Below are positions 22,503 to 27,722 of a stretch of DNA of 33,251 bases, in pieces (positions within the stretch are counted from its first letter, which is position 1; the number at the start of each line of letters is the position of its first letter). The stretch is taken from positions 1 to 33,251 of the forward strand of contig JAIOQW010000084.1 of assembly GCA_021108405.1 (NCBI GenBank). The letters are read 5' to 3'. The translations under genes and the position numbers were made by a program. The notes under the pieces are model-generated. The model was given only the letters and a program-made list of their open reading frames with translations, was not told the DNA's origin and ran no database searches. Source of the stretch: Methanosarcinales archaeon (lineage in GTDB: Archaea; Halobacteriota; Methanosarcinia; Methanosarcinales; Methanocomedenaceae).

Positions 22503-22520
22503 TAAATAGAAAATCAAATT

Positions 22521-22594
22521 GGGCTCGTGGTCTAGTTGGTTATGACGTCGCCTTCACACGGCGGAGGTCCGGAGTTCGAATCTCCGCGGGCCCA
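22521..22594 (+). tRNA. tRNA-Val (anticodon CAC)
   Basis: The acceptor stem is GGGCTCG/CGGGCCC (one G-T pair). The D arm contains TAGTTGG. The anticodon stem TCGCC/GGCGG holds loop TTCACAC, giving anticodon CAC for codon GUG. The T arm is CGGAG-TTCGAAT-CTCCG with the TTCGAAT loop, and the discriminator is A. No CCA is encoded and there is no intron. The mtrA-like start codon lies 22 bases downstream. Confidence 0.95.
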
Positions 22595-22616
22595 TTCAGG
22601 GTTAGAGATTGTTGCA

Positions 22617-23216
22617 ATGTTTGAAGATACGATTGTGAAAGATTGGCCGTCTGTACGTGGAGATCATACAGTAGTAGATCCTGTATCACATATCTGTGTT
22701 GTTACATTGGCCAGTGATATGGAGCCGCTTGAAAACGTCTGTATGATGGGGAGCTGTAAGACCGAGAACCTGGGGATAGAAAAGATCATTGCCAACACTA
22801 TCTCTAATATTAATATAAGATATATCCTGATATGCGGACAGGAGTCAAGAGGTCATCTTTCAGGTAATACTCTACTCGCGGTACATGAAAATGGTATTGA
22901 TGAGCATGGCAGGATCATAAGCTCGCAAGGTGCCATACCATTTATTGAGAATATACCTACCCATGCCGTTGAGCGTTTCAGGCAGCAGGTAGAACTAATT
23001 GATAAGCGCGGTTTGGTTGATGCTAAAAAGATACAGGCAATAGTTGAAGAATATAGATCCAAAGGCGAACCGTTCTCCCAACCGCCCCTGATCCTTGAAT
23101 CAGCTAAAAAGAAAAAGACTCATTCGCCTGTGCAGGAGATCGCACATGGAGATATGATGATAGCTCAGGATATTCTAATGGACTCTGCCTCAGGAGTTAT
23201 ATTTGTTGAAGTATAA
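22617..23216 (+). CDS. mtrA: Tetrahydromethanopterin S-methyltransferase subunit A-like corrinoid protein, no membrane anchor
   Basis: The 199-residue protein matches MtrA across its cytoplasmic corrinoid-binding domain: WPSVRGDHTVVDPVSHICVV, GSCKTENLGIEKIIANTISN, RYILICGQESRGHLSGNTLL, HENGIDEHGRIISSQGAIPF, IENIPTHAVERFRQQVELID. MtrA normally continues to about 240 residues and ends in a membrane helix that anchors it in the Mtr complex. Here the C-terminus (DILMDSASGVIFVEV) is not a membrane helix, so the protein is soluble. The homologue of mtrH follows 24 bases later, while mtrEDCB, F and G are absent. It probably carries a methyl group on cobalt between methyl-H4MPT and another acceptor. 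The family is firm; the alternative role is inferred. Confidence 0.92.
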   Translation: MFEDTIVKDWPSVRGDHTVVDPVSHICVVTLASDMEPLENVCMMGSCKTENLGIEKIIANTISNINIRYILICGQESRGHLSGNTLLAVHENGIDEHGRIISSQGAIPFIENIPTHAVERFRQQVELIDKRGLVDAKKIQAIVEEYRSKGEPFSQPPLILESAKKKKTHSPVQEIAHGDMMIAQDILMDSASGVIFVEV

Positions 23217-23240
23217 TTAGTACAGACGGAATTGATAATT

Positions 23241-24173
23241 ATGTTTGTATTCCAAAAAGAGCAAGAGATCGTGAATATCGCTAATGTGAAGATAGGGGGC
23301 CAACCAGGGGAATTACCTACTGTACTGGCAGGAACCATTTTTTACAATAACCACCACATTGTCACAGATCCATTACAAGGCGTTTTCAATAGAAAGGATG
23401 CAGAGGGCCTCATTAATATACAGGACACACTTTCTGATGAAACAGGGAACCCTAATATGGTGCATATATATGCCCACACTTTTAGTGCTGCTGTAAAGTA
23501 TCTCGACTTTGTAAGCGAGCATACTGACTCCCCAATTCTTATAGATTCCACTGAATCAAAGGTACGGACAGCCACAGCCAGCTATGTAAGTGAGGTAGGA
23601 CTGGCTGATAAGACCATCTATAATAGCCTGAATATGTCAGTGACTGAAGATGAGATAGAAGCTCTTACTATATCAGATATTGATACTGCGATCATACTTG
23701 GTTTTAATGCAATGGATTCCGGTCTTAACGGGCGGATGCAATTACTGGAGGACGGAGGGAAAGTGCTGCCAAAGGGTCTGTTAGAGATTGCACAGGAATG
23801 CGGGATCAAAAAAAAACTGATCGACCCTAGCATCACACCTATGGGTGATGGTGCAGGCGTAGCATTGCGGATGTGCATCACTTCCAAGGCAAAATACGGG
23901 CATCCGGTTGGTTCAGGTATTCATAATGCACCTTCATCATGGAACTGGCTGCGAGGCAAAAAAAAGGAAGATATGCTTGTTGCAAAGATATGTGATATAG
24001 CCTCGACCGGACTTCAGCAGATGGCTGCAGGTGATTTTATTCTTTTTGGTCCGATCGAGAATGCTAAATATACATTCCCTTTAGCAGCAATGGCAGATAT
24101 CATGATCTCGGAAAGCGTTGCTGATCTTGGTAGTGAGCCTGTAGATGGTCATCCTGTATATAAACTTGTGTGA
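23241..24173 (+). CDS. mtrH: Tetrahydromethanopterin S-methyltransferase subunit H-like
   Basis: The 310-residue protein matches MtrH along its length: VFQKEQEIVNIANVKIGGQP, PTVLAGTIFY, DSTESKVRTATASYVSEVGL, YNSLNMSVTEDEIEAL, LIDPSITPMGDGAGVALRM, GHPVGSGIHNAPSSWNWLRG, FILFGPIENAKYTFPLAAMA. MtrH is the soluble subunit that moves the methyl group between N5 of tetrahydromethanopterin and the corrinoid of MtrA. Length equals the family's usual length. ATG 23241 is preferred over TTG 23232. Together with the anchorless MtrA it would make a two-protein methyltransferase module. Confidence 0.93.
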   Translation: MFVFQKEQEIVNIANVKIGGQPGELPTVLAGTIFYNNHHIVTDPLQGVFNRKDAEGLINIQDTLSDETGNPNMVHIYAHTFSAAVKYLDFVSEHTDSPILIDSTESKVRTATASYVSEVGLADKTIYNSLNMSVTEDEIEALTISDIDTAIILGFNAMDSGLNGRMQLLEDGGKVLPKGLLEIAQECGIKKKLIDPSITPMGDGAGVALRMCITSKAKYGHPVGSGIHNAPSSWNWLRGKKKEDMLVAKICDIASTGLQQMAAGDFILFGPIENAKYTFPLAAMADIMISESVADLGSEPVDGHPVYKLV

Positions 24174-25804: not shown

Positions 25805-27163
25805 CTACAAGAAATCATCCATATCAAATATCATAAACCCCATTTCACTTAATTCCTTTTTATTATCTATCTTTTTTACAATTAGCCCGAAATATTCTAT
25901 TCTTTTATCTTTATTCCACTTAACATAATCTGATTTTTCTTTTAATTTTCTAAGGATATTTAATGATTCTTTCAAGGAAACAGTTTTCCATTTGCATTCA
26001 ATAAATAATATCTCGTTAGAATCATCATTTAGAGCAATTAAATCAATTTCAATACCTTTATGCCACCAGCGGCCGACCCGTGTAAAATCTATCGGTCTTT
26101 TTTTCCAGAGAAATTCTGCTGATATTTTCTCAAAAACACGACCTATATAGCGATTAAATTCCACAGAAAAATTCCTGATTTTCTGATCATTATTTATAAG
26201 ACTTTTATTTGGAAAGACAAACCTGAACCAGAAGGTAAAATAATTATCAGTGATATAGTATCTGGCATTTCTTGATCGCTGGATATTATCAGTAACCGGA
26301 TAATCAGCTTTTACTATATTTAATATTGAGAGATTTGATAAATATTGTGATACTATAGATGTACTTAGTCCTGTGTAATTGACAATATCTCCGAATTTTG
26401 TCTTTCCAAAAGCTATAGCTTTTAGTATAGCGAAATATTTTGCAGGTTCTCTAAACTCATATTTTAACAGTATTTCTGCTTCCTCAAGAAGCAGGCTTTG
26501 TGTAGAGTAAAGTGTTTCAATTTCACTGATCTTGTTAATCCTATATTGTGCTTCTTTTAAGTAATAGGGTATTCCATCAGTTATTGCATATATCTTTATC
26601 AGGTCATCTATCCTGAAGGTAGGAAAAAACAATGACATGTGCCTGAATTCGAATGGTTTGACCTGTATTTGACCTGTCCGCCTCCCATAGAGCGGGCTTT
26701 TACTTCCAAGTACATGTTGCTCCATCATGCTTATTGAAGAGCCACACAGGATCATTACAATATTTGAATCACTAAGATAAAGATCCCAGGCTTTTTGGAA
26801 TATTGAAGGTATGGCTTTATTGCCGTTTATCAGATATGGATATTCGTCGATTATTATGATCAATCTTATTTCTGTTTTTGAAACCTCTTTTAATAAATTG
26901 ATCCAATCCAGGTCGGAAGATCTTATAAGATTATTATCCAACCTGTCAGCTACAAGTGTTTTAAATTCCGAAAGATTTTCAAGGTCTCCCCTTTCATCAG
27001 CAAGGAAATATATAGCATTCTTGTCCTTTGCAAATTCCTTTAAAAGTTCGGTTTTTCCAATTCTTCTTCTTCCGTATATTACAATGAATTCACTTCTATC
27101 TGATTCATGTGCAGAATTAAGATAATTAAGTTCTTTTTTCCGGTTTATGAATTGATTAAACAC
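25805..27163 (-). CDS. Archaeal AAA+ ATPase with DUF234 nuclease-like domain
   Basis: The 452-residue protein begins (M/V)FNQFINRKKELNYLNSAHE and has Walker A YGRRRIGKTELL, Walker B IRLIIIIDEYPYL, sensor-like MILCGSSISMMEQHVLG, a winged-helix stretch (FGDIVNYTGLSTSIVSQYLS) and the C-terminal DUF234 region with EIDLIALNDDSNEILFIECK, a PD-(D/E)XK-like D...ExK. GTG 27163 is chosen because the family starts at FxNRxxEL; the frame stays open to 27592, but that extension overlaps the opposite HTH gene and has no family similarity. Such ATPases are numerous in archaea and of unknown role. Confidence 0.88.
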   Translation of the reverse strand: MFNQFINRKKELNYLNSAHESDRSEFIVIYGRRRIGKTELLKEFAKDKNAIYFLADERGDLENLSEFKTLVADRLDNNLIRSSDLDWINLLKEVSKTEIRLIIIIDEYPYLINGNKAIPSIFQKAWDLYLSDSNIVMILCGSSISMMEQHVLGSKSPLYGRRTGQIQVKPFEFRHMSLFFPTFRIDDLIKIYAITDGIPYYLKEAQYRINKISEIETLYSTQSLLLEEAEILLKYEFREPAKYFAILKAIAFGKTKFGDIVNYTGLSTSIVSQYLSNLSILNIVKADYPVTDNIQRSRNARYYITDNYFTFWFRFVFPNKSLINNDQKIRNFSVEFNRYIGRVFEKISAEFLWKKRPIDFTRVGRWWHKGIEIDLIALNDDSNEILFIECKWKTVSLKESLNILRKLKEKSDYVKWNKDKRIEYFGLIVKKIDNKKELSEMGFMIFDMDDFL

Positions 27164-27272
27164 GATTATGCTAATTGTGATTAAACTATTTAGGCGTTTT
27201 GGTAAACGAAAATTTTTCAGAGATACTGTCCTTACAGCAATATACTTATAGTAAACACACATATATTGACAT

Positions 27273-27722
27273 ATGTTCATCCCTATCCAGGAAAAGCAAT
27301 TCGAATTCTGGCGGTTGCGGCGTAGCGGCCTACCTAACATTAACATTGCGCACTCCTTCAATATATCCAGACAGGCAGTATCCAGAGCGCTCATTACTAT
27401 GGATAAGCGCATTGAAGAAACACTGCTGGAAATGGCGCAGGCTAACCAGATAGAAGTAGAGAACCTTAACACTGAATACGGCATCCTATTAGGCCGCTCA
27501 GTACCCTTCAATGTCAGGACTGTTATCTTTATTTCCGCAAAGCACGGTATGCAGGTATGGTACGAGCATGAGGGAGATTGCAGTTCATGCACCAGATATA
27601 CTCAGTGTATAGAACTGTTGTGGGACCTTGCAGATGAGATGAATATCAAACTTGAGAAGACAGATGATCCTACAAAGCTGGCAGATGAGCTGTTTAATAA
27701 GCTAAGGGGATTGATGCTATAA
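27273..27722 (+). CDS. HTH transcription regulator with a cysteine motif
   Basis: The 149-residue protein has an N-terminal helix-turn-helix: EKQFEFWRLRRSGLPNINIA then HSFNISRQAVSRALITMD (residues about 7-44), similar to sigma-70 region-4 or MerR-type DNA-binding helices. The middle carries VRTVIFISAKHGMQVWYEHE and a C-S-S-C-x5-C motif (Cys103, Cys106, Cys112) that may bind zinc or iron. Similar proteins occur in methanogen genomes. The stop codon at 27720-27722 directly abuts the ATG of the DUF1673-like gene, so they are probably cotranscribed. Confidence 0.85.
   Translation: MFIPIQEKQFEFWRLRRSGLPNINIAHSFNISRQAVSRALITMDKRIEETLLEMAQANQIEVENLNTEYGILLGRSVPFNVRTVIFISAKHGMQVWYEHEGDCSSCTRYTQCIELLWDLADEMNIKLEKTDDPTKLADELFNKLRGLML

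Follow-up and report, generated by a model that had tools for sequence, protein, structure and literature searches.

A conserved MtxA-MtxH pair in a Methanosarcinales archaeon and its probable role in Na+-uncoupled methyl transfer

The gene pair and its surroundings

The window, meaning the whole 33,251-nucleotide stretch of contig JAIOQW010000084.1 that was analysed, contains two neighbouring genes of the MtrA and MtrH families directly behind a tRNA gene:

22520..22595, plus strand: tRNA-Val (CAC), ending 21 nt 5' of mtxA (ARAGORN and Rfam)
22617..23216, plus strand: mtxA, soluble MtrA homologue (group II MtrA), cobamide carrier without a membrane anchor (PF04208, E=1.9e-52)
23241..24173, plus strand: mtxH, MtrH homologue (subgroup II), predicted methyl-pterin:corrinoid methyltransferase (PF02007, E=1.1e-116)

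The mtxA frame extends from an ATG at 22617 to a stop at 23216 (199 aa) and the mtxH frame from an ATG at 23241 to a stop at 24173 (310 aa), in agreement with the MtrA-MtrH pair that a preliminary description had placed at 22617-24173. The best NCBIfam model for MtxA was NF010654, whose cut-off of 279 bits was just missed with 271 bits. MtxA has no membrane helix: the top 19-residue hydrophobicity in its last 60 residues was 1.27, whereas canonical MtrA from this family scored 2.38 by the same measure. A divergent uvrA lies 5' of the pair and unrelated genes lie 3', and no further mtr gene was seen beside mtxA-mtxH in the window. The missing helix and the position of MtrA beside MtrH only, both claimed beforehand, are therefore borne out. 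Elsewhere in the window, an ATPase-like frame (25805-27592, minus strand) matched the PADLOC candidate defence models PDC-S27 with 168 bits.

The order of tRNA-Val followed by mtxA, including its spacing, was identical in ANME-2 archaeon HR1 (L034), the nearest relative of the pair (86%/91% identity, with 91% for the best named match). The tRNA gene occupies the slot that mtxX holds in most relatives, and tRNA-Val and mtxAH are possibly co-transcribed from the tRNA promoter. The host genome comprises 3.67 Mb in 363 contigs, is 99% complete and encodes an McrA of the methane type. Because HR1 was the best named match, we read the host family as apparently of the ANME-2a/b type, on the basis of the HR1 name and PMC9012536.

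Identity of the pair and its relation to the canonical Mtr complex

By its sequence, the pair is identified as the known MtxA-MtxH (group II MtrA, subgroup II MtrH) of the mtxXAH operon, which has been reported for Methanosarcinales (PMC4632066, PMC3087415) and whose MtxAH is handled as a distinct complex in PMC9982363; the preliminary description had not recognised it as such. The host pair shares with this operon the clades of both proteins, the A-then-H order, the conserved His84 and the lack of both a membrane helix and MtrBCDEFG, but in the host genus it stands apart from mtxX, behind tRNA-Val.

Phylogenetic analysis, which had been proposed as a check, placed both proteins outside the canonical clades. 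The MtxA clade was separated from canonical MtrA (Methanosarcinales and Methanobacteriaceae) and Mtr2 at 100/100 in a tree from which two long-branch rows were omitted; deep support was weaker (81/84) in an earlier tree that included them. Support for the MtxH clade was 97/93. The cobamide domain of MtxA is homologous to that of the canonical complex (36% identity to HR1 MtrA), and MtxH is 45% identical to the MtrH of a family member, with shared catalytic residues. However, MtxA lacks the C-terminal helix and the KDPGA motif and forms its own clade, no Na+-pumping subunits accompany the pair, and Asp5 and Gln75 are replaced in MtxH. When the pair was compared with members of a canonical mtrEDCBAFGH operon, His84 was present, while the MtrA helix and the neighbouring mtr genes were both missing.

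Inspection of the cobalt-ligating histidine and the MtrH active-site residues, a second proposed check, found His84 and the four pterin residues intact. His84 was kept in 92/92 MtrA/MtxA rows, and Asp103, Asn129, Asp196 and Asn230, the designated pterin residues in PMC12774963, were invariant across all aligned MtxH and related rows. Gln75 was replaced by His in 26 of the 27 MtxH rows and was Gln in every canonical and Mtr2 row, which makes the change, as judged from the alignment, a subgroup mark of MtxH. Since it lies in the pterin pocket, the pterin preference of MtxH could differ, for example towards folate over tetrahydrosarcinapterin (H4SPT). Asp5, the MtrB-binding residue of canonical MtrH, was lost in MtxH and also in Mtr2; the loss was dropped as a sign of an absent MtrB partner because Mtr2 lacks the residue too.

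A KDPGA motif links the catalytic domain of canonical MtrA to its membrane domain and forms the Connectase site (PMC10154401). A motif of this type was present in 27/30 canonical Methanosarcinales MtrA and 24/27 Methanobacteriaceae MtrA, and absent from all MtxA sequences scanned. A separate arrangement was observed in genome G056, where a soluble canonical-type MtrA (196 aa; L053:8215-8805, plus strand) contains the KDPGA motif of the Connectase site and is followed by a Connectase gene (PF09894; L053:8905-9531, plus strand); this Connectase might swap or ligate MtrA domains.

Two other proteins resemble the pair in part. MtgA of Desulfitobacterium hafniense (PDB 6SJ8) has the fold family and pterin residues in common with MtxH, but it is distant (165 bits, compared with 281 for M. 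mazei MtrH) and, as a methylcorrinoid:tetrahydrofolate methyltransferase, uses tetrahydrofolate (H4F) and another corrinoid protein. The cytoplasmic MtrA homologue of Methanothermus fervidus (PDB 5LAA/5L8X) is likewise a soluble MtrA domain with His84 as cobalt ligand, but it is reported to share 97% identity with the membrane-bound MtrA of that species (PMC4915002), whereas MtxA represents an old, separate lineage with its own MtrH.

The search for a complete mtr operon elsewhere, also proposed in advance, revealed where the canonical operon of the host begins. In the assembly MtrA and MtrH each occur once and MtrE is absent, which by itself would suit a reading of the pair as what is left of a decaying canonical operon or as a fragment split from it. 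In HR1, however, the canonical operon sits behind ahcY, and the host ahcY lies on a contig of 23,080 bases (C40) that has the same upstream sequence as HR1 and stops 12 codons into mtrE, at MNNRMTDPIIID. Because C40 ends in the first codons of mtrE, the canonical operon was severed by the assembly, and the seeming absence of the Na+-pumping subunits in the host is an assembly artefact; the ordinary Mtr complex is kept. The far end of the operon was sought through the genes that lie 3' of mtrH in other genera, but these were found inside contig C21, without mtrH. The only other genome of the genus (G001) carries both the pair and the canonical operon, and of 60 relatives nearly every one has a canonical MtrA, about 240 to 250 aa long. 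The idea that the host has lost the canonical Mtr complex was rejected on account of C40; the case shows how a gap in an assembly can make a central energy complex look lost. As a refuting observation, the preliminary description had named a split operon that leaves the genome without further mtr genes; what was found instead is a canonical operon that starts at a contig end.

Both genes are also under purifying selection, with a dN/dS relative to HR1 of about 0.17 for mtxA (0.083/0.477) and about 0.09 for mtxH. Together with the separate clades of both proteins, the co-occurrence of soluble and canonical MtrA in nearly all relatives and the mtrE start at the end of C40, this leaves the remnant or split-off reading with hardly any credibility, and it was set aside as refuted by the trees and by C40.

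Distribution, gene order and fusions

The mtxA-mtxH pair was found in 15/15 members of the family that were examined, as well as in most Methanosarcinaceae, and is a real, conserved pair of an already known kind. Its strongest new points are the fusion of the two proteins, the lack of a Connectase motif in MtxA and the evidence that speaks against methylotrophy. Of 80 named loci, 48 showed a stand-alone A-then-H arrangement, 34 of these with mtxX, and two were fused in the order A-H. The usual 5' neighbour in relatives was a gene of 270 to 330 aa corresponding to MtxX (TIGR03270). It was absent beside the host mtxAH and stays near pyrC on contig C30; in HR1, mtxAH likewise lies behind tRNA-Val, apart from mtxX. 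Because several relatives lack the mtxX adjacency too, we treated it as a usual rather than a required feature, although MtxX as the usual operon partner could alter the picture. Among genome contigs, a single-sequence scan with MtxA gave no match, whereas an alignment search with MtxH succeeded.

In four Methanococcoides genomes (M. seepicolus LLY, M. alaskense DSM 17273 and two further genomes), MtxA and MtxH are encoded 3' of mtxX in a single open frame that covers the two Pfam domains:

L103, 7331-8692, plus strand: MtxA-MtxH fusion
L104, 5671-7032, minus strand: MtxA-MtxH fusion
L142 and L149, 5572-6933, plus strand: MtxA-MtxH fusion

Together with the adjacency of the two genes at almost every stand-alone locus, this fusion strongly, if indirectly, suggests a stoichiometric unit, and MtxA and MtxH very probably act as one. 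As Methanococcoides is a genus with cultured species, the fusion offers a single-protein handle on the reaction. In the L103 and L104 fusions, the MtrA domain begins 5' of the first ATG, GTG or TTG in frame, which points to a likely rare start codon. Two Methanosarcina-type loci (L110 and L112) have mtxA frames without ATG, GTG or TTG right after the mtxX stop, with a probable CTG-like start. A different fusion was seen in genome G029 of family f5, where a protein of 451 aa (L105:6406-7761, minus strand) combines an MtrA domain with one of thymidylate synthase (PF00303).

Proposed reaction and candidate methyl acceptors

The pair is probably best explained as the MtxA-MtxH of an ANME-2a/b archaeon, carrying out Na+-uncoupled methyl transfer beside the ordinary Mtr complex. 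MtxH, a TIM barrel, would bind methyl-tetrahydrosarcinapterin and use it to methylate the Co(I) cobamide on His84 of MtxA, or catalyse the reverse, and MtxA would act as a free cytoplasmic methyl donor or acceptor alongside the Mtr complex. Given that MtxA lacks a membrane helix and has no MtrBCDEFG partners, this step would not be coupled to Na+ transport. The preliminary description had suggested such Na+-independent transfer between methyl-pterin and a corrinoid, and the proposal fits the conserved His84, Asp103, Asn129, Asp196 and Asn230 and the separate clade. We infer this reaction and its uncoupling from Na+, a physical complex of the two proteins and a role in biosynthesis instead of methylotrophy; methionine synthase and folate C1 metabolism are the candidates for the final methyl acceptor. 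A literature search returned no biochemistry on MtxA or MtxH, no function assignment for a pair named for decades and no discussion of it in this organism group.

A methylotrophic entry or exit route had also been suggested for the pair and did not hold up. Harms and Thauer proposed in 1997, as given in PMC4632066, that methyl groups from methanol or methylamines reach H4SPT via MtxA-MtxH at no Na+ cost; the proposal was made for Methanosarcina, and the pair does occur in many methylotrophic Methanosarcinaceae. However, MtaB, the substrate enzyme searched, was absent from the host genome and 16 members of its pair-carrying family. It was also absent from 41 genomes of family f6, presumably Methanotrichaceae, which carries the pair, while in genus g16 the genomes G042, G045 and G054 each encode two MtaB and gave no MtxA-level match. 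ANME genomes are moreover reported to have no methyltransferases for methanol, methylamine or methylsulfide (PMC9012536). Strict conservation in methane oxidisers and in a second family without MtaB speaks against a methylotrophic role, and we consider this route improbable.

With regard to biosynthetic acceptors, methyl-MtxA may supply the core methionine synthase (MesC type) of Methanosarcinales, a tentative suggestion. Core methionine synthases depend on a methyl-corrinoid protein, which for MesA is predicted to be MtrA; MesC is present in Methanosarcinales and Methanotrichales (PMC7857596). A soluble MtrA charged from methyl-H4SPT would suit such a donor, and the role would be identical for methanogens and methanotrophs. 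However, the predicted MesC donor is the corrinoid iron-sulfur protein of CODH (PMC7857596), mtxAH has no conserved methionine-gene neighbour, and MtxA is missing from ANME-2c, from most Methanoperedenaceae and from genus g16, all of which need to make methionine.

A link between the H4SPT and H4F C1 pools, with MtxH using methyl-H4F or MtxAH shuttling between the two pterins, is rather less likely. The idea draws on the action of the MtrH relative MtgA on H4F, on the position of the Gln75-to-His change in the MtxH pterin pocket and on a folate cluster 3' of mtxAH in g2, another genus of the host family (L035, L038, L040, L044 and L047), arranged as follows in one locus:

L040, 4508-11186, plus strand: mtxAH, then a 350-aa gene, a gene resembling formyltransferase, glyA, folD and dihydropteroate synthase

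This association is confined to one genus, however, and FolD was also found in families without the pair (f3 and f5) and in genus g16, while the host FolD lies on a separate contig (C12). The FolD distribution does not track the pair, and support for a folate link from the gene profile was therefore discarded.

Finally, MtxA-MtxH might, in a speculative and on balance unlikely extension of Na+-uncoupled transfer, be a dedicated Na+-independent shuttle from the catabolic H4SPT pool of ANME-2a/b into biosynthesis, through either folate C1 metabolism or methionine. If so, methane carbon would enter biomass while bypassing the energy-consuming Mtr step.
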